Below, piece by piece: positions 10,575-27,538 of a stretch of DNA of 64,000 nucleotides. The DNA comes from Halobacteriales archaeon YIM A00010. Its GTDB lineage: Archaea > Halobacteriota > Halobacteria > Halobacteriales > Haloarculaceae. The stretch lies in the NCBI GenBank assembly GCA_025041175.1, contig JAKCFJ010000002.1:682001-746000 (forward strand). Reading direction: 5' to 3'. The notes under the pieces are model-generated. The model did no database searches, was not told the DNA's origin, and saw nothing but the letters and a program-made list of their open reading frames with translations. The position numbers and the translations under genes were made by a program. The stretch's first letter is position 1; every line of letters starts with the position of its first letter.

Positions 10575-12185
10575 GTGATGGATGACGTGGGCCCTCTTGA
10601 GCCAGTGTTCGACGACGTTCACGAACGGCTTGAAACAGCACCGACGCTTGTCGACCTCGTTCGACACATGAATGTTGACCCGGTACTCTGCGATGTAGAT
10701 ACCAAGCGTTTTGAGGAGTTAGAGTACGACGCAGAGCCACTCGTTCGTGCATTGTTCTGCCGGGAGCTCGCTGGGCTTTCGTGGGCTGCCCTCTACGAAT
10801 TTCTCTCGACCGACGCACGAGCCATCCAGATCGGCTTCGATCCCGAGGCGTTTGGCCCGTATAACACGGCTCCAACGCGACAAACACTCACCACCGCGTG
10901 GGATCTGGAGCTGTCGGACGATGGGAAACGAGCCATTCTTACCGTGAGTGAGCGTCTCGTTGCTATCGCCCACGAAAATGAGGTGGCACTCGATCTCCGC
11001 CTGCCGCGCCACGTCGAAGAGAATGACTCCGATCTGCGAGAACGACACGGTGGGGAGTTCTCGGACGAGCAGATCCGTCAGACGGTTCGCCTTGCCCGTG
11101 AGACCATCTTCGGTGCGTTTGACGCCGGGAGAGCAGCTAATACCACGTATCCGGAGAGTCGTTTCGACGAATTTCAGGCGTTCATGGCCCTCTGTCGGTG
11201 TGGGACGCCACAGGGCCAGGCTCGGATGGAGACCTTCTTCGGGGAGGACTACCCCCCTCACGGTGATACCCACCTCCGGACGGTCAAGAAATACACGTCT
11301 GCGATGATTCAGGCAGGGTTCGATCGGTCGATTGAGAACCTTCTGGCAGCGGTGAATCACCTCCAGATCTTCCAACCGCCCGTCACTGTTGCGATCGATA
11401 TTACCACCTGGCCCTACCATGCTGAAGAGGATCTCCCCAGTGAGGTCAGTGGGACCGACGAATCGGGAGAGATGGCCTACAAATTCGCGACGCTCTCGCT
11501 GGTTGGCAAGAGCATGCCGATCGTCCTTGCCGTTGAGCCGGTGATTGAGAGCTCAGCGTGGGACGAGAACTTCCCCCATCAGTATCATCGAACAGTCCGA
11601 CGGCTCGTGCGACGAGCCCAAGAATTCGTGTCGATCGATTTCGTCCTTGCCGACCGTGGGTTTGAATCATTGCAGGTCTACCAAACCCTGGATAACCTGG
11701 ATGTCACCTATCTCTTCCCCAAGGTTGAACGAGAGCCCGAGAACACGTACATCGACCGGATGGAGCAGGAGGGAACAGAGGTGGCTGTCGAACAGGCGAC
11801 GGTGAAAGCGAGAAATGGGAGCCATGAGTGTCGAGTACTGTTCGTCTCAGGACAAAACGGTGACATACAGCCGTTCATTACGAACGAACAGATTGACGAT
11901 CCCGAACACGCACAGCGGTGGGTGAAGCGCTACGTCTCCCGCTGGTGGATCGAAGCCGAATACCGCTCGATCAAACAGGAGTTCCTCGCACGAACATCCT
12001 CCAAAGATCATACCCTGCGATTCTACTACTTCGTGTTCGGTATCCTCATGTACAACGTCTGGCGGCTCACGGATGTCCTGCTGAAAGCGACAGTCTCACG
12101 GGAGTTGACGACCGCTCCGCCAGTCCTCACTGCTGGAGAACTCGCTGATTGGATTGCAATCCATCTCCAGCTCGGGCCTGGCTAG
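10575..12185 (+). CDS. IS4-superfamily (ISH3/ISH6-like) DDE transposase
   Basis: A 536-residue transposase-like protein. The RNase H-fold acidic residues are visible: VAIDITTWPYH (first D), VLADRGFESLQVY (second D) and a C-terminal WWIEAEYRSIKQEFL that fits the YREK-type glutamate of IS4 relatives. The C-terminal helix FGILMYNVWRLTDVLL is common in haloarchaeal IS4-like transposases. The protein is longer than typical ISH3 enzymes (about 390 residues). I could not find terminal inverted repeats or a target duplication on either side, so the element may be partial, or the gene may be an immobile relative. The start could also be one codon later. Confidence 0.7.
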   Translation: MMDDVGPLEPVFDDVHERLETAPTLVDLVRHMNVDPVLCDVDTKRFEELEYDAEPLVRALFCRELAGLSWAALYEFLSTDARAIQIGFDPEAFGPYNTAPTRQTLTTAWDLELSDDGKRAILTVSERLVAIAHENEVALDLRLPRHVEENDSDLRERHGGEFSDEQIRQTVRLARETIFGAFDAGRAANTTYPESRFDEFQAFMALCRCGTPQGQARMETFFGEDYPPHGDTHLRTVKKYTSAMIQAGFDRSIENLLAAVNHLQIFQPPVTVAIDITTWPYHAEEDLPSEVSGTDESGEMAYKFATLSLVGKSMPIVLAVEPVIESSAWDENFPHQYHRTVRRLVRRAQEFVSIDFVLADRGFESLQVYQTLDNLDVTYLFPKVEREPENTYIDRMEQEGTEVAVEQATVKARNGSHECRVLFVSGQNGDIQPFITNEQIDDPEHAQRWVKRYVSRWWIEAEYRSIKQEFLARTSSKDHTLRFYYFVFGILMYNVWRLTDVLLKATVSRELTTAPPVLTAGELADWIAIHLQLGPG

Positions 12186-13520: not shown

Positions 13521-16333
13521 CTACACTTCGAAGTCGTATTTTTGTTCCCGTTTGATAAACGCGTCCCTACCACCCTCCAGAATTTCGGCAACGTGGGTGC
13601 GAATATCCGAATTTTCGAGCGCACCTGATTCGAAAAAGATTTTGTTGTCCTTATACCTGGCTACGATCACCTGTTCGGCATCGGTGTTGACAACGAGATT
13701 CGCGTTGTGCGTCGCGATTATGACTTGTCGGTCAGTTTTTGCCTTCCGGAAGGCATCTTTGAGCGTATCGTAGATGAACCGGTTGTCAAGATTCTCTTCG
13801 GGCTGATCAATGATGAGCGGCTTATCGTCCTCAGCGAGAAGTATCTTGAGCAGGACAGTCCCCTTCTGTCCCAGTGAGAGCCGATTCATTGGCGTCTCAT
13901 CAAGGAGGATCCGTTCGTCGAGTTTGATGTAGTTCCCGAAGACTCGCTGTTCGTATTCCGCCTGCGAGGACCCGTTCGTGAGCTGCTCGCTGTAGCATAG
14001 TGTTTCTTCAATATAATCTTCTGCTAAGTGTTGAACTCGTTCGGGATTCTCGATCGCCTCTTCAAGACGGTTGACACCGGGCGTGAGATCTTCGAAGTTT
14101 ACACTCCGGCCATCAAGCAGATTGAATAGTTCCGACTGCACGCCATCTGCAAGTTTCAGCTGCGCTCTGAACTGGACATCTTCGAGGATGGCCGACTTCC
14201 CCTCTTGAAAGTGGGAGATCATCGTTGAGTACACGTCTCGAAGCCGGTCACAGCGTCGGAGGTAGTCAATGAACTGCTTGATCCGCTTCTTTCGCAGATC
14301 CGAAATCTTATCTTGTGTTTCTTTCAACTCTTTACGGTGGTCTTCAACACTATCTCGCTTGTCCTCCAGCTGCCGAAGGTCTTTCCGGAGTGACGAGAGC
14401 TTGCCGCTTACATTCTGCAGGCCATCAAGCTCTCTCTGCAAATCGTTCTTACTCTCTTTCAATTCCTCAATCCGTGAGGTAACGCGGCTGATGATATTCT
14501 CGAGTTCTGCTTCGAGGCTCTCACGATCGATGTGAGCCATAGAGATGTCTAACCCGAGTTCGTTCGCCTTTGTCGAGACTTTGCTCGTATGGTTATTGTA
14601 TTTCTCGATCGAGTCGAGGAGTTTACGCTGTGTCTGGAGGGTATCGCGCATGGAACCCGCGATCTCAAGCTGCTCTTCTATCTCTTCGAGGTCGGATTCG
14701 AGCTCATCAACTGCCTCCTCGTGAATTTCGCTCGCGTGCTTCTCGCGGAACTTTTCAATTTCTTGCTTCTTGTCAGCGATATTCCCCTTGACTGCATCGA
14801 GTTCGTGAAACACATCCCGAAGTCGATCATCGATTGTCTCTGGATTATGCTGATGTAGTTGATTAGTGAGCTGTTGTAGCTCTCTGACAATCTTGTCTAT
14901 CTCGGCCTGTGTCCCCTCGAATCGGTCTAGCAAGTCCGGGTCGTTGGACTGGGTCGACTCCTTGATTAAGTCCAGAACTTTCTTATGCATCAGGGCATCA
15001 TCCCGGCAGAACCCCGCGATTTTCCCCTGTGGAAGGTACTCGATTCGAGACCGGGTAATGGTCTCATCGTCGAGCATAGACTTCTCGAAGGATTTGACTT
15101 CATCGCCGGTAAATGTGAGCTGTGTCATCACTGAAGACGCCCCGTCTGATTTTTGCGTCCGTTCAATGAACGAGTTCGAATCAGCGTTGACATCCTCCAT
15201 CGGAATATGCTGATTTTCGAAACAGTTCGCGATTAAATCCAGTAGTGCCGTTTTCCCAGCCCCTTTGCCACCAATTACGGTGATAAGGTTCGAGTTCAGC
15301 GGAAGCTGTGTCTCAGCAATCTCCAACGTATTGTTGATTTTCCCGTCGTGAATGCTCAGCTCGTCGGGCGTGTGAATGGAAATCCGACGCTGGGGACTTT
15401 TGGGACCGATACCAATCCGCGTCTCGGGTTCGTACTTGATCTGTTTGAGGCCTTCCCACGTGGTGTCGGCCTTGATCCAGCAATATCGGTCTTTGTCAGG
15501 GTGACAGAAATCGTCGAACGAGTGTGTGTCCGACCCGCGGATCCCCGGGACGCGCGCGCCAAAGCGTTCGGCGAACGATTCCGGCGTAAAGCCACCTTCC
15601 CGGCCGAGGAACCAGTTTCGATCGCTATTTTTCTGTACAAAAACAGCGTCTGCTTGGGTCAGCAGTTTACTCCGTTCCGAACCGGACCGCGACCCCCACT
15701 GGAGATCGTCCCAGCCTCCCTTCGTGACGAGGACAGTCATCGCCTTTCCGCGAAGCCGCTTGCGCTCCAATGCTTCCTGGATGTCATTCCACTTGACAGT
15801 GATGAGCTTACAGCCTGCAACATACGGATCGTCTTCGTCGACAGAATTCGCGAATCGATCAGAGTTGCCAAGCTCCGTAATGCTCTCTCGCGTTAGGGCG
15901 ATATCTTCACCGACAGGGTCTGTAGCATCATTTGGGAGATAAATTCGTCTTGGATTTGTGTGGGAGACAGATCATCACTGAACAGCACATGCACCTCAAT
16001 TGGCTTTCCATTCCCATCGTGCCGGCTCGTGATAAAGTTGTTAATCCGTAGCTCGATATTCGGAATAACAAGATCAAGGTTGTCGAGCCGTCCGTTCTCC
16101 TCTATCTCCCGCCGAATCCGCTTGTAACCCTCGATGGAGAAATAGTCGGTAATGGCGACACAAGAGATATCATCCAGCGCTTCTAGCTCGTCAAGATACC
16201 GGTCCCAGATGGCATCTTCATGAGCTTCTTCCGCGTGGATGTCTCGGTCAAGCCCAAATCCCTCGTGAAATGATGCCGGTGAGTGGACGTGCAGATCCCA
16301 CTTGTTCCATGTAGATCCCCGTGGCGATGTCAT
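13521..16333 (-). pseudogene. TrlF-type PHP-ATPase, one frameshift
   Basis: Two frames together encode about 937 residues. The first (16333-15893) is a PHP phosphoesterase-like domain (WDLHVHSP near residue 12, with D and H metal ligands). The second, open from about 15950 down to 13521, completes it and adds an SMC-like ATPase: Walker A GGKGAGKTALL, a long coiled coil, signature LSLGQKGT, Walker B PLIIDQPEENLD and H-loop IIATHN. This PHP plus ATPase order is that of the TrlF family, often found among defence genes. Restoring one T in the run at 15941-15943 joins the frames smoothly (IQDEF then YLPNDATDPVGEDIAL). It may be a sequencing error rather than decay. Confidence 0.72.
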
Positions 16334-16902: not shown

Positions 16903-17598
16903 CTGGTGAAACTGGACCTAAGGGCGGTCGGATCTGTCTGTGGTCACTAACTGACGGAGCAGTTCAGGCAATGTCGCCGTGGTACAAGAGTGGACTACAG
17001 TATAAGATATCGTGGTATCCGCAGGGGCAACGGGTTTACTACTACGTAGAAGATAAGCATGGCCCCGATATTTATGCGCTCACACCGAGTGGTGACGTCA
17101 CTACGATTGTCGCTGATGATGCTTACCACTATCTCGCAGACCTTCACCCATCCGGTGAGTGGCTCCTCTACAGTTCGTCAGCTACGGATCATCTCCAAAA
17201 AAAGACCGTCAGCACCGACACAGCAGAGGCGTGGGGACCTTCTGATTTCTCCGACCCATCCATTGTCGCTCGTTTCGATCATACTGGTGAGCGGATTCTC
17301 ATCATGCGAAATCCGACAGACAACCTTCAGAATCAGGATTTGTTTATCCATGCAAGCGATGGTACTAAGCAGAGGAGAGTGTCAGGATACTGGAGACCGT
17401 TCGTTCAGGACTGGATGGCATCCAGAGGGTGATCGGATTTTTGTGACATCCAATATAGAAAAACGACCAGGGATCTTCGATCTCCGGACAAATGAGGTCC
17501 ATTGGTTCGGTGAACAGGGATCTCGTGAACCTACCGAGACGAAGATGAACGGTGGAACAGCGCAAGAACTCCATCGATTGCTACCCAACACCTGTTGA
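16903..17598 (+). pseudogene. TolB/PD40 beta-propeller remnant
   Basis: Fragments of a WD40-like TolB propeller: ICLWSLTDGAVQAM, ISWYPQGQRVYYYVEDKHG, LHPSGEWLLYSS and, in a second frame, WHPEGDRIFVTSNI. The frame is already open at the edge of repeat copy A, so the gene lost its 5-prime part there. Near 17415 an extra four bases (TGG ATGG before CATCC) throw the frame off. Without them DWHPEGDR would follow directly. TolB-like propellers bind peptides or act as scaffold domains. This one is clearly dead. Confidence 0.65.
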
Positions 17599-17682: not shown

Positions 17683-18399
17683 ATGGACGAAGCGACACGC
17701 AGCCCGGTCTCTTCGGGTCCGGAGACAGTTCACGACCGGAAAGCGTTCGCTGAGAGACTCATGGATCTCAAACGCCGGGGGTGTTGTGTACTCGTCACTG
17801 GCCAGGTAAATGAACGGACACGTGCTGCCCAATCCCGCCGGCTGTTTGGCCAGAGTGACACCGCCCGACAGCGCGTGCTGACGCTCACTGATGCAACATC
17901 TGCGTCTGCAGCCCGATATCTCCCTCAGGGGATTACACCAACACACTCAACTGTAACGACACTCGATTATACCGAACAGGTGCGTATTACCACTGACACC
18001 GTCGATCCCACATCACAATCAACGTCAGACACCACCTCAGATGATGCAGCGTCGATGGGCGAGCTTGGCTCACTCCTCTACGATCCAATCAGTGATACCC
18101 TCCGAACTGACACAGTACATCCAGGTGAGCTTCGCCTCGGGATCGCGACGCTCCATATTCTTCTCGACACTGATGGACTCTCAGCAACGCGGGCGTTCGT
18201 CCGCGCGATCCGAGCCGATATACTGGACACACACGGGATGGGACATTTCCATCTCCCTGGCTCGCTCGATTCTGAGACGATCGCTGCGCTGTGGCCACTG
18301 GTTGACATCCACATCAAGCTTCGGCAGTCCGACTGTGGTTCCGAGCATCGCTGGCACCTACTTGAAACGGGCCAGACAACCAGCTGGATCCGGTTGTGA
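17683..18399 (+). CDS. DUF7504-like RecA-fold protein, CHAT partner
   Basis: A 238-residue protein resembling the haloarchaeal DUF7504 group, a degenerate RecA/KaiC-like fold. The first strand and loop read CCVLVTGQVNERTRAAQSRRL, where a Walker A would be GxxxxGKT, so it probably does not bind ATP in the usual way (motif shown in part only). Later parts alternate strands and helices (ELRLGIATLHILLD, MGHFHLPGSL, VDIHIKLRQ). Its stop overlaps the GTG start of the CHAT gene by 4 bp, so the two proteins are made together. In haloarchaea I recall this family beside CHAT proteins; the role is unknown. Confidence 0.65.
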   Translation: MDEATRSPVSSGPETVHDRKAFAERLMDLKRRGCCVLVTGQVNERTRAAQSRRLFGQSDTARQRVLTLTDATSASAARYLPQGITPTHSTVTTLDYTEQVRITTDTVDPTSQSTSDTTSDDAASMGELGSLLYDPISDTLRTDTVHPGELRLGIATLHILLDTDGLSATRAFVRAIRADILDTHGMGHFHLPGSLDSETIAALWPLVDIHIKLRQSDCGSEHRWHLLETGQTTSWIRL

Positions 18400-20597
18400 C
18401 AATGGGTACCACTTCCCTTACTAACACCGTCCACATCGATACACACCCGACGGCGCACCCACCGACTCTCGATTTGGTCGACGATATCGAGGGAATCCGC
18501 GTGCGGTTCTCGACCGACCGGAAACCAAATCCGACACGCTGTTCAACTGTCCCCTTTCGCTTCCCTGTCGATACAGCATACGAACTCTCTCCACTCGTTC
18601 TCTGGACCAACAAGATTAATCCAGTTATCGTTCGAGGCTCAGATGGAGATGTCCATACCGAAATCACGTCCCACGAGGCTGTGGATCTTCCGCATGGACA
18701 ATATACTGCAGATGTGAGTTCACTTGGGCTAAAAATCTATCTTCGAGTTCATGGTGAAATGCGCATTGTACCGGATACAGACCATGGGCGAATGCTCGAC
18801 TGTTCGACCGCTGAGTCAGTCCAACTCGGGCTGCGTTCATTCCATGAGTCCCCGACGGCGACGGTGACGACGACCGACAGTCCCCACGATATCATGCGAG
18901 CGGTGTCGTGTCTCGGTTCGGCACTCAAAACCACCTCCTGTGAGCGATCGTTTCCGACACTCCGGGGGCATCCACCCCTAATCGAGCGGGGCGATCGATT
19001 TCATGCTCCCTCGGGACTCGAACGGACTGCCGAGACAGCGAGCCTCCGCATTGAGGTTCCACCGACGCTCGAATCGATCTATCCGGTCGCTCCGCTTGCG
19101 TATTATTTGAACGCTGTCGTTCAGCCTGGCGAGGAGTCCCGTCTCGTCGGAAATGGTGATACGTACCGCCTCGATCAGGGCGATGGCATCGAAGCGGGGA
19201 TTGCCCAGCTGCTCAAGCACGTTTTCACGCTCGATTGCATTACGCGAACCGAAGGGTTCTATCCGATTACGCTCGGTGAGCGCACGACGCTCGAAAACCG
19301 CCTTTCTGAGACCTCTACTGAGGTCGATTTCGCCGCGTTGTACGACTATTCTCTCGCCGAGCGAGTACAACGATACCTCTCGATTCCGTTCGGTCTCGTC
19401 GAGGATCTCGTGCCCCGCTGGCCGCTCACCGCCGATGTTCGTCCGGTGGCGAAACACCTGTCGTATCTTCCGTTTGTCGTCGCAAGTATTGGCACGGTAC
19501 GATGTCTCCCAACGACGTGTTCCTGGTCACCTCCCGTGGATCCGCCGGAGATCGAGGCGTTTTATCGAAACGAGGACCACAGGACAACGCACGGCGAATT
19601 CATCCGCGGGAGAGATTTTGCGCCGAGAACCCCATCGGGGGGGTCGATACGATCTCCAGAAGACAGCTTTGATCGCGCGCTGTCGCCGGACATCCATAGC
19701 CCCCCTGATTCAGACAGCATCGCCCAGCTCTGGCTTGCTGAGGGCTATCCGATTCAAGGGGCAAAACCGTCGCTCACAGCATACCAACGCCGGTTTGATG
19801 CGATCACAGCCGAGACGTACGAGGTGGCAGTGATCAGTAACGACGTACGAATGGCAGCTGAATCGGACGTGGCTGATCTGTATGAAAACCAGGAGCAGAT
19901 GGGATTTGACGTAACCATACACGAGCAACTCTCGTGTGAGGACCTTCGGGACGTCTTTGCTGAGGAGTACGACCTTGTCCATTACGTGGGCCACGTTGAC
20001 GCCGACGGGCTCCAATGTAGCGACGGCTGGTTGGACGCAAACACACTTGAGACAGTCAACACACGAATGTTCGTCCTCAATGGCTGTCGCTCCTACGAGC
20101 AGGGCCAGACGTTGGTTGACAACGGCGCGATCAGCGGGTTGTGTACGCTCACGAACGTCGGAAACACGCCAGCCACTCAGATTGGCCGCACAGTGGCACA
20201 GCTACTCAATGGAGGGTTTAGCCTCAGTGGTGTCCTCGACATCATCGGGGAGGATTTTCTGACTGGCCAGCAGTATATGATCGTGGGCGATCCCAGTATG
20301 GCGATTGTCCAACGACATGATGACACGTCCGTCCTCGCCGAGATCACGCCGACATCGGAAGAAGAGCAATACCTCGTTGACATCTATGGCTATCCGACGA
20401 TCCGGTCCCCGATTGGAATGCTCTATGCACCGGAGATAGACGATAAAGAGACGTATTTTCTCAATAGTGGTCACATGACGACCGTCACTGCTTCTCGAGC
20501 CGAAGTCAGAGATTATTTACGCCACGATCGATTCCCCGTTCGGATTGACGGGACGTTTACGTGGAGTAACGCGGCCTCCCTCGATGGAATTGACTGA
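18396..20597 (+). CDS. CHAT domain protease-like protein
   Basis: A 733-residue protein with a C-terminal CHAT (caspase-HetF) domain. The catalytic pair is visible: histidine H533 in VHYVGHVDADG and cysteine C564 in VLNGCRSYEQG, followed by the CHAT-like stretch GLCTLTNV and GQQYMIVGDPSMAIVQ. CHAT enzymes cleave proteins and act in cell death or defence, for example in Craspase and gasdermin systems. The long N-terminal region (1-480) is beta-rich and haloarchaea-specific and may sense a signal. Start is GTG at 18396 overlapping the partner, or ATG at 18402. No gasdermin-like target is seen nearby. Confidence 0.8.
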   Translation: MTMGTTSLTNTVHIDTHPTAHPPTLDLVDDIEGIRVRFSTDRKPNPTRCSTVPFRFPVDTAYELSPLVLWTNKINPVIVRGSDGDVHTEITSHEAVDLPHGQYTADVSSLGLKIYLRVHGEMRIVPDTDHGRMLDCSTAESVQLGLRSFHESPTATVTTTDSPHDIMRAVSCLGSALKTTSCERSFPTLRGHPPLIERGDRFHAPSGLERTAETASLRIEVPPTLESIYPVAPLAYYLNAVVQPGEESRLVGNGDTYRLDQGDGIEAGIAQLLKHVFTLDCITRTEGFYPITLGERTTLENRLSETSTEVDFAALYDYSLAERVQRYLSIPFGLVEDLVPRWPLTADVRPVAKHLSYLPFVVASIGTVRCLPTTCSWSPPVDPPEIEAFYRNEDHRTTHGEFIRGRDFAPRTPSGGSIRSPEDSFDRALSPDIHSPPDSDSIAQLWLAEGYPIQGAKPSLTAYQRRFDAITAETYEVAVISNDVRMAAESDVADLYENQEQMGFDVTIHEQLSCEDLRDVFAEEYDLVHYVGHVDADGLQCSDGWLDANTLETVNTRMFVLNGCRSYEQGQTLVDNGAISGLCTLTNVGNTPATQIGRTVAQLLNGGFSLSGVLDIIGEDFLTGQQYMIVGDPSMAIVQRHDDTSVLAEITPTSEEEQYLVDIYGYPTIRSPIGMLYAPEIDDKETYFLNSGHMTTVTASRAEVRDYLRHDRFPVRIDGTFTWSNAASLDGID

Positions 20598-24514: not shown

Positions 24515-25963
24515 TCACCCCTCCGTAGCGACCAACTCTGCCTGACGCTTCTTGAATTCCTCACACTCCATCTCATTCTCGGTCCGATCGGCAAATTCGA
24601 TGGCCTGTTCGCACCACTCGATCGCTCTTGCCTCGGCACCACGTTGATTGCAGATATCGATCAACTTGTGGAATATATTGAACATATCCCCAATAATCGC
24701 GTTAGAATGGAGAATGACAAATGCCTCCTCAACGTATGACTCGGCAATCTTTGGGGAACCACATTCTCTGACAATTTCCGCGAGATTGCTAAGACTCTGT
24801 GCTTCGCCCCGACGATCACCAACTTTCCGATAGAGAGCAAGCGACTGTACGTAGTATCTCTCGGCTGGTATGAGATTTCCATACATGAAGAGCACGTTGC
24901 CAAGATTGATGAGACACTCCGCTTCACCCTGGCAGTCACCAACTTCCCGACAGAGCCTCAGCGATTCCTTGTAGTATAACTCGGCACTCGGAAGGTTTCC
25001 ACGCTGAAAGAGAACGTTGCCGAAGCTGTTGAGGCACTTCGCTTCGCCCTGACGATCGCCAACCTTCCCATAGAGGCCAAGCGACTGCATGTGATACGTC
25101 TCAGCTGTCCCCAGATCACCGCTCATTCGTGCGATATTTCCAAGGCCATGCAGACTGTCTGCTTTGCCCTGGCGGTTATTCATCTCTCGTCTGATGATGA
25201 GTGACTTCTCATAGTACGATCTGGCATTCGGAAGGTTTCCACGCATGACAGCGATGTTCGCGAGGCTGGTGAGACTTGCAGCCTCACCTTTGCGATCACC
25301 AATCTCTCGAGAGAGGGCAAGCGATTCGTCGTAGTACTCCTCGGCGGTCTCCAAGCCATCACGCTTTCGTGCGACATTCCCACGGTTATTGAGACTCCTC
25401 GCTTCACCCTGGCGGTCACCAACTTCCCGACAGAGCCTCAGCGATGCCTTGTAGTATAACTCGGCACGCGGAAGGTTTCCACGCTGAAAAAGAACGTTGC
25501 CGAGGCTGTTGAGACACTCTGCTTGGCCCTGACGATCGCCAGCCTCCTGAGTAAGGGCGAGCGCCTCCTCATAATACTCAGCGGCTGCCTTCAAGCTCTC
25601 ACGCTTTCGTGCGACGTTTCCAAGACCCTGGAGACTCGCAGCTTCACCCCGCTGGCTACCGATCTCCCGAGCGAGAGCGAGCGACTCCTCATAACACTCG
25701 ACAGCTATCTCCAAGTTATCACGCTTTCGTGCGACGACTCCAAGGCTATGGCGTACCACGGCCCGCCGTTTGTTTGGCTCAGCGAATTCGTACTCCTCTG
25801 TATCAATCAGTCGGCCAGCCTGTTCGAACTCCGCCTTTGCTGCGGTTAATGCTCCTCGCTCGAAGTGGATTCGTCCACGAATGATGAACCACCGGTGCTG
25901 TGCATCCACGGGAGCTGAAGTCAGGCAGGTGGTTTTCTCATGCACGATGGGAATCGGAATCAA
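24515..25963 (-). CDS. TPR repeat protein, 5-prime end lost
   Basis: A 482-residue protein made almost wholly of tetratricopeptide repeats with a 40-residue period, of the kinesin-light-chain type (for example LGNVARKRESLKAAAEYYEE and LGNVLFQRGNLPSAELYYKE). About nine units run from residue 70 to 440. TPR arrays bind partner proteins. The first 16 codons, including the only in-frame start (TTG at 25963), lie inside palindromic repeat copy B, so the natural N terminus has been lost. Relatives usually carry an N-terminal ATPase (STAND-type) domain; a fragment of one lies at 34351-34811. Two units 480 bp apart are nearly identical in DNA. It may not be expressed. Confidence 0.65.
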   Translation of the reverse strand: MIPIPIVHEKTTCLTSAPVDAQHRWFIIRGRIHFERGALTAAKAEFEQAGRLIDTEEYEFAEPNKRRAVVRHSLGVVARKRDNLEIAVECYEESLALAREIGSQRGEAASLQGLGNVARKRESLKAAAEYYEEALALTQEAGDRQGQAECLNSLGNVLFQRGNLPRAELYYKASLRLCREVGDRQGEARSLNNRGNVARKRDGLETAEEYYDESLALSREIGDRKGEAASLTSLANIAVMRGNLPNARSYYEKSLIIRREMNNRQGKADSLHGLGNIARMSGDLGTAETYHMQSLGLYGKVGDRQGEAKCLNSFGNVLFQRGNLPSAELYYKESLRLCREVGDCQGEAECLINLGNVLFMYGNLIPAERYYVQSLALYRKVGDRRGEAQSLSNLAEIVRECGSPKIAESYVEEAFVILHSNAIIGDMFNIFHKLIDICNQRGAEARAIEWCEQAIEFADRTENEMECEEFKKRQAELVATEG

Positions 25964-26540: not shown

Positions 26541-27146
26541 TCATGTCACTCCTGCCTCTTCGAAGGCTTCGTTTACAACCTCTGGTGTGGGCGCATTGAG
26601 GTAGGGTTCAATGGCTTGAAAAGAGTCCCAGCCGCCGACTTGCATGACCACCCGGGGATTCATCTGGCGATCGACTAAGAGGCGCTGGGCGAACCGTCGA
26701 CGAAGATCGTGCGACGAGACATGTCGATAGTCGTCATCGCCGGTCTCTTCGGCCGCTCGCTCTGCGGTTCGCTTGACGACCGCCCGTACGCCTCGATCGG
26801 AGAGGTCAACCAGCGGCTCATCGGGAGCAATGGTCTCAGCCGTCGTGAATCGGTGGATGTCGCGCTCGACGTCGGGTGGCAAATAGGCATCCCGAGGCTT
26901 CCCGCCCGAGCCGGTGGTGTCTTTTCCCTTGGGTACGCGCAACCGGTAGTGATCGCCGTCGGTGGTCCGTTTCACGTGTTTCGGGCATATCTGTGGGATC
27001 TCGAACGCTCGCAGCCCAACATACCCCCCGAGTTGCAGAATGAGATCATCGCGATGGCTGGCGGCTGCTCGACGGAGTTGCTCTACTTCCGCGTCGGTCA
27101 TCCAGACGTTGTACTCGTCTGGCTTCGCCGTGGCTTCCAGTCGCAT
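26541..27146 (-). CDS. Tyrosine recombinase, catalytic domain only
   Basis: A 201-residue phage-integrase/XerCD-type protein. The catalytic residues are visible: R46 in GLRAFEI, K73 or K75 in RVPKGKDT, H146 and R149 in SSHDLRRRFA, W173 in GGWDSF (in place of His) and Y182 in IEPYLN. The usual N-terminal core-binding domain is missing or reduced, as in several short haloarchaeal integrases. ATG at 27146 gives the cleanest start. Such enzymes integrate or resolve plasmids and islands. No tRNA or clear att site is seen beside it. A 11-bp inverted repeat lies at 27501-27539. Confidence 0.8.
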   Translation of the reverse strand: MRLEATAKPDEYNVWMTDAEVEQLRRAAASHRDDLILQLGGYVGLRAFEIPQICPKHVKRTTDGDHYRLRVPKGKDTTGSGGKPRDAYLPPDVERDIHRFTTAETIAPDEPLVDLSDRGVRAVVKRTAERAAEETGDDDYRHVSSHDLRRRFAQRLLVDRQMNPRVVMQVGGWDSFQAIEPYLNAPTPEVVNEAFEEAGVT

Positions 27147-27538
27147 GTCGATTACCATAACAAGTATCAACATAGTTCTATCGGTCGGACAGGAAATGGT
27201 GGTGGTTTGCCCCGTGATCGGGGCGGTTTAGGGGGTGGTTGGTGGTATTCGTTGCCGACTTGTGTAATAAACCGGCACTCTTACCACTCATCGGCTGGTT
27301 GGTTAGTGAACAAATCAACAGGGTTGATTATCTCGAACTAAGGGCTCAGCAGTTGATCTGCAAAGTATATAGCGAGATGTGGTATACTGTGCTTCGCTCT
27401 GCTCCCTACGACGATTAACACCGACTTAGTATCGGCCACGATGAAACTGCGGCTGAGATTTCCCATTCTCAGTACCTCACAAAGCCAGTTAGTTAGAACG
27501 TCTGCTTGCTGAAGGTGTGCCTACGACCCAGCAAGCAG
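27147..27538. other. Intergenic upstream of the recombinase
   Basis: 392 bases with no supported gene. The recombinase promoter should lie in 27147-27200. The inverted repeat TCTGCTTGCTG / CAGCAAGCAGA at 27501-27511 and 27529-27539 directly abuts repeat copy C. It may be a recombination or terminator-like site. Confidence 0.4.

Follow-up and report, generated by a model that had tools for sequence, protein, structure and literature searches.

A haloarchaeal gene pair encoding a predicted caspase-like protease and a KaiC-fold DUF7504 partner without a Walker A motif

The caspase-like fold with a His/Cys dyad is found in the CHAT proteins of type III CRISPR systems, TPR-CHAT (Csx29 of Craspase) and SAVED-CHAT, in which the protease is controlled by an associated sensor. 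The same fold is present in separase and in the gingipains (Peptidase C25), which are secreted bacterial proteases. A RecA-type fold is common to KaiC, FlaH, and Elp4-6. A caspase-like activity has also been reported in haloarchaea (Bidle 2010; PMC3615174) and has no accepted gene: extracts of H. volcanii contain a dominant zVAD-FMK-sensitive, caspase-4-like activity of an unidentified protein, and archaeal genomes are said to lack clear caspase homologues (PMC3615174). Here, we describe a haloarchaeal gene pair that joins a predicted protease of this fold to a KaiC-like protein.

The window, which is the whole stretch of 64,000 nucleotides analysed from Halobacteriales archaeon YIM A00010, lies on a 1.02 Mb contig, one of 7 contigs in a genome totalling 5.97 Mb. 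Two genes follow each other on its forward strand. Gene 1 (17683..18399) encodes a DUF7504 protein of 238 amino acids, a putative regulatory partner with a RecA/KaiC-like fold and no Walker A, and gene 2 (18396..20597) encodes a protein of 733 amino acids with a caspase-like protease fold of the clan CD type. Direct reading of the sequence places the stop codon of gene 1 and the GTG start of gene 2 within a shared 4-bp GTGA (18396..18399, forward strand); an alternative ATG start at 18402, two codons in, would replace the overlap with a 2-bp gap. An earlier note on this DNA had given both open reading frames, and they are present at these positions; the 4-bp overlap that it described is true for the GTG start, and its numbering of H533 and C564, counted from the GTG, is correct. 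Just upstream of the pair, two overlapping open reading frames in different frames (16971-17598, forward strand) resemble the end of a beta-propeller (PD40-like) protein and are probably a frame-shifted remnant. On the reverse strand, a Ppl-like phage-defence gene (13521-16333), comprising a PHP-like N-terminal piece and an SMC-like ATPase, is split into open reading frames at 15893-16333 and 13521-15770, the larger of which matches PADLOC Ppl with an E-value of 2.1e-27. A repetitive TPR protein of 482 amino acids (24515-25963, reverse strand; PADLOC 'TPR', E 5e-71) is situated near a phage-integrase-type recombinase (26541-27173), and a transposase (10575-12185, forward strand) matches DDE_Tnp_1 at E 1.5e-4, slightly short of the cut-off.

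The AlphaFold2 model of the protease, built from an alignment of 77 natural homologues, has a mean pLDDT of 88.9 and a pTM of 0.89. Residues ~340-640 superpose on caspase-like proteases in Foldseek and VIA-align comparisons, with the highest score for gingipain RgpB (Z 20.0 over 242 residues, 2.9 Å), followed by SAVED-CHAT (17.2), separase (16.8), and DdvA (16.7), and with lower scores for the TPR-CHAT of Craspase (13.9), legumain (12.5), and caspase-3 (11.9); the Z scores of 11.6-20 to gingipain, separase, legumain, and caspase chains place the model in the clan CD fold. The predicted dyad is also positioned as in clan CD, with the conserved His and Cys at the ends of neighbouring core strands. 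H533 (19992..19994, forward strand) stands just after core strand 527-531, and C564 (20085..20087, forward strand), in the motif FVLNGCRS, just after the next strand, 558-562. Both residues are invariant in 58/58 homologues and kept in 139 of the 140 of a wider set. Since a nearby histidine, H529, is replaced by Gln in three of the four most distant homologues, H533 is favoured as the catalytic His. The structure prediction by which the earlier note could have been refuted gives a caspase-like fold around H533 and C564, and the His/Cys pair that it had read is the conserved one. One distant homologue (L204:8040-10100) has both catalytic positions changed, His to Arg and Cys to Asp, and is, judged by its sequence, a natural pseudo-enzyme.

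The catalytic domain is only one part of the protein. In the model, residues ~8-160 (18396..18875) form a β-rich N-terminal region with no match in Pfam, NCBIfam, or PADLOC. Further along, the alignments reveal a signature, RSFPTLRGHPP (residues 184-194; 18945..18977), in which R184, S185, P187, R190, H192, P193, and P194 are nearly invariant; R284 and W342, also outside the catalytic domain, are near-invariant as well, so that the N-terminal half seems to serve a separate, conserved function. The earlier description of this region as unlike known CHAT effectors agrees with the lack of family matches and with its conservation within the family. Residues ~225-372 (19068..19511) form an α/β region ahead of the active domain, and several separase and Craspase alignments begin at residues 225-228; by its placement, it would correspond to the pseudo-protease half known from separase and TPR-CHAT. 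Because the fold comparison barely covered the N-terminal 225 residues, the lack of an assigned fold there is no sign of a new one. A linker of low model confidence follows (residues ~373-439; 19512..19712; pLDDT under 50 at 395-428), then the caspase-fold domain (residues ~440-640; 19713..20315), outlined by gingipain, SAVED-CHAT, separase, and caspase alignments within model residues 340-639, and finally a C-terminal region that is β-rich in the model (residues ~641-733; 20316..20594); all of these lie on the forward strand. The linker (~375-435) evolves fastest, with a dN of 0.38-0.66 versus 0.12-0.27 in the protease domain (NG86). Over the whole gene, dN/dS is ~0.17-0.19 (NG86, window gene against five relatives), and the protease gene is under purifying selection.

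The CHAT domain proposed in the earlier note is upheld as a caspase-like fold in the model but not as a family match, since Pfam CHAT (PF12770) reaches an E-value of 0.011 and 15.7 bits, under its 24-bit gathering cut-off. Among 20 members of the protease family, 11 match Pfam CHAT at E up to 1 (best 0.0011) and one matches Pfam C25 weakly (0.0014). NCBIfam and PADLOC gave no match to the 733-residue protein, neither protein of the pair matches a component model of PADLOC-DB 2.0 at E up to 10, and PDB sequence searches with the protease or its profile returned nothing usable. Pfam and PADLOC found no TPR or SAVED sensor domain in the protease, and a scan of the long open reading frame at L090 (1278 amino acids) found no fused domain.

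The upstream protein belongs to Pfam DUF7504 (PF24336; E 8.5e-40, 137.5 bits, above the 27-bit gathering cut-off). Its AlphaFold2 model, built from 60 natural sequences (pLDDT 88.4, pTM 0.84), matches KaiC (Z 16.5), Rad51 (15.6), Elp456 (15.2), and FlaH (15.1) over nearly the full length, and the Z scores of 14.6-16.5 assign it to the RecA fold. None of 100 DUF7504 proteins contains a Walker A P-loop, so conventional ATP binding is not expected of the protein. The earlier note had called the upstream protein RecA/KaiC-like without a Walker A; the model supplies the fold and the family-wide count the missing motif. All 41 related genomes of ≥90% completeness encode DUF7504, each in several copies. 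At six loci (L210, L213, L217, L218, L220, and L223), a DUF7504 subgroup without linkage to the protease recurs next to a dpsA-like ferritin gene and the gene for a conserved ~200-residue protein. Our literature search, in which subscription papers were thinly covered, gave no mention of DUF7504 and nothing that joins haloarchaea with CHAT domains, so a prior description is possible.

A tree of 140 proteins of the protease family, rooted on four outsiders, contains a 21-member core clade located beside tbsP/glyA (support 0.997) and a 115-member clade in which linkage to DUF7504 is common (support 0.675 only). The state labels on the tree rest on an older DUF7504 profile, a BLAST cluster contaminated with REC-HalX regulators and PAS/GAF kinases, and the clade structure is independent of it; the counts of DUF7504 given here use a profile made from 64 upstream partners. 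With this profile, DUF7504 was found within 1.3 kb at 84 of 136 distinct haloarchaeal homologues, upstream on the same strand at 65 and downstream at 16, whereas none lies nearby for 34 of the 136 or for the 18 recognised core copies. The larger clade has 84/115 members linked to DUF7504, mostly directly upstream. In the 'downstream' clade, a search of the coding strand found no conserved small gene between the protease and DUF7504. The core copy adjoins tbsP, a YcaO protein gene, and glyA in several families (L055, L094, L103, L104, and L108), and this conserved chromosomal neighbourhood may hint at its function.

Over the 64 upstream pairs, evolutionary distances among the proteases correlate with those among their partners (0.86). 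When the partners were swapped within each genome, the correlation was 0.54 ± 0.04 and none of 2000 trials reached 0.86, which argues that the pair is inherited as a unit; physical linkage alone could explain this co-inheritance. The 'two-gene system' of the earlier note is supported by these counts and by this covariation beyond within-genome shuffles. On a plasmid of Halocatena salina (L209:5325-8163), the protease open reading frame is intact, no DUF7504 frame was recognised in the upstream gap, and the partner seems, from the sequence, to have been lost. Together with the homologues lacking DUF7504, this open protease gene argues that the partner is not strictly required.

The protease family occurs in most haloarchaea. 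A GTDB scan returned 488 relatives, and the 80 matches listed are all from haloarchaeal records or archaeal MAGs. The family is present in 48 of 59 related genomes (window genome counted) and, in a phylum-wide sample, in 32/197 genomes, of which 28 belong to the window's order and the remaining four to a single other family; these four outsider genomes carry a single protease gene in a conserved setting, with no DUF7504 match. Each of the 15 Haloferax genomes searched contains a single protease copy, with DUF7504 directly upstream. The window genome holds, besides the window copy, four near-full-length paralogues of 59-68% identity, a further copy of 38% identity, and a core-type copy of 33%, as well as decayed copies; the protease/DUF7504 cassette recurs there as six pairs, two of them decayed. 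Two decayed copies in this genome consist of a DUF7504 gene followed by an 87-residue protease remnant (L057:8517-9499) and by a truncated protease open reading frame (L054:7831-9675). In plasmid records, the usual annotation of the protease is 'hypothetical protein'; 'caspase family protein' and 'CHAT domain-containing protein' occur once each.

REC/HalX-type regulators lie within 1.3 kb of 22 of the 84 DUF7504-linked loci versus one of the 52 others, and multi-domain PAS/GAF kinases and HTH_10 regulators recur near the protease loci. Shared ancestry of the loci in a few clades might account for the HalX association, and the surroundings of the window pair yielded no REC/HalX-type or similar regulator. 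A downstream neighbour in Haloferax, considered as a second DUF7504, turned out to be a REC-HalX regulator. Among 106 sampled neighbours of DUF7504-linked loci, aminotransferases, DUF7344, universal stress protein, IMPDH, and TrmB are the most frequent Pfam families. These families and the recurrence of HalX regulators and kinases point to signalling more than to defence.

The reading that we prefer, to which we give about an even chance of being right, is a regulated limited-proteolysis module with a signalling or stress role, in which a caspase-like protease is switched by a P-loop-less KaiC-like partner. It builds on features obtained by computation, namely the folds, dyad conservation, pairing, co-inheritance, purifying selection, and absence of Walker A. 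We infer that the downstream protein would be a cytosolic cysteine protease acting through His533 and Cys564 on a presumed cellular substrate, and that it would carry its own N-terminal region and a separase-pseudo-protease-like region ahead of the active domain. The DUF7504 protein would be a KaiC/RecA-fold adaptor, co-produced from the same transcript, which may bind the protease and hold or release its activity on a cellular signal, either direction of control being conceivable. The putative signal would probably arrive through two-component regulators of the haloarchaea (REC-HalX, PAS/GAF kinases), and the role would be stress or state control rather than that of a dedicated antiviral killer. 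The breadth of the DUF7504 family, with several copies per genome and other neighbours such as dpsA, counts against the module.

The antiviral killer itself is the strongest of the alternatives, and we consider it unlikely. DUF7504 would sense infection and unleash the protease, which would kill or arrest the cell like the CHAT proteases of type III CRISPR; CHAT-fold effectors do act in defence, as in Craspase (PMC10028731). In the window genome, multiple copies of the pair are spread across replicons, some of them decayed, as is typical of conflict genes evolving by birth and death, and ~1.3 kb separates the window pair from the split Ppl-like defence gene. However, PADLOC at 1e-15 matched only about five of 106 sampled neighbours of DUF7504-linked loci (IetA, TRIP13-type AAA, TPR, subtilase, HerA, and mad8, some rows possibly being one protein), with one clear defence gene, and the commonest neighbour families are metabolic, regulatory, and stress-related. 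Around the core loci, one of 106 neighbours matches at the same threshold, and none of the sampled neighbours matched a CRISPR component in PADLOC. These tallies give the idea of a defence island no support. Moreover, no relative of the protease was found in 50,697 phage records or in the viral contigs searched, and each of the 15 Haloferax genomes has a single copy; on these grounds, the defence or cell-death role suggested in the earlier note is not supported.

The family could instead be the source of the haloarchaeal caspase-like (LEVDase/IETDase) activity, in a housekeeping or stress role, which we judge improbable. Neither the Peptidase_C14 nor the Pfam CHAT model has a match in the 15 Haloferax genomes or the H. 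volcanii control, while all 15 carry one family member, which makes the family a testable candidate for the orphan activity. Nevertheless, Sulfolobus, Pyrococcus, and Methanosarcina were reported to show this activity as well (PMC3615174), and outside the window's order, the family appears in only one family of the phylum in the 197-genome sample. The activity was measured in H. volcanii, a species not identified among the 15 Haloferax genomes. A later study reportedly tied the haloarchaeal activity to the thermosome, the proteasome, and Cdc48b, which also speaks against this explanation. We consider rather improbable, too, the farther-reaching picture of an ancient archaeal caspase-fold family hidden from Pfam, with a KaiC-like on/off switch, that would explain at least part of the orphan activity and serve its own limited-proteolysis, possibly cell-death, pathway. 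A caspase-fold scaffold that binds ligands or partners with no proteolytic role is very improbable: the L204 homologue has lost both His and Cys and some prokaryotic caspase homologues are presumed pseudo-enzymes (PMC6426788), but 139 of 140 homologues keep both residues even though identity to the window protein falls to 26-40%.

The regulated-protease reading matters because it concerns a widespread haloarchaeal caspase-fold family, mostly annotated 'hypothetical protein', and pairing with a P-loop-less KaiC-fold protein would be a new way to control such a protease. With one copy per genome and its neighbour, Haloferax offers a tractable model genus. Compared with TPR-CHAT and SAVED-CHAT (Z 13.9 and 17.2), the haloarchaeal protein has the same caspase-like fold and His/Cys dyad, but it lacks a TPR or SAVED domain, its Pfam CHAT score is under the cut-off, and its partner is a KaiC-fold protein instead of those sensors. 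Separase shares the fold, and alignments to it (Z 16.8) reach into the region before the active domain; however, the haloarchaeal protease is archaeal and much shorter, has no known securin-like partner, and shows an identity of 10-16%. The gingipains are the closest match in fold (Z 20), with an identity of 10%. As for the haloarchaeal caspase-like activity, it comes from the same organism group, in which 15/15 Haloferax genomes carry a candidate caspase-fold protein, and the family is a candidate only. The DUF7504 protein has the RecA-type fold in common with KaiC, FlaH, and Elp4-6 over nearly its whole length (Z 15-16.5) but differs from them in being a single domain with no Walker A (0/100).
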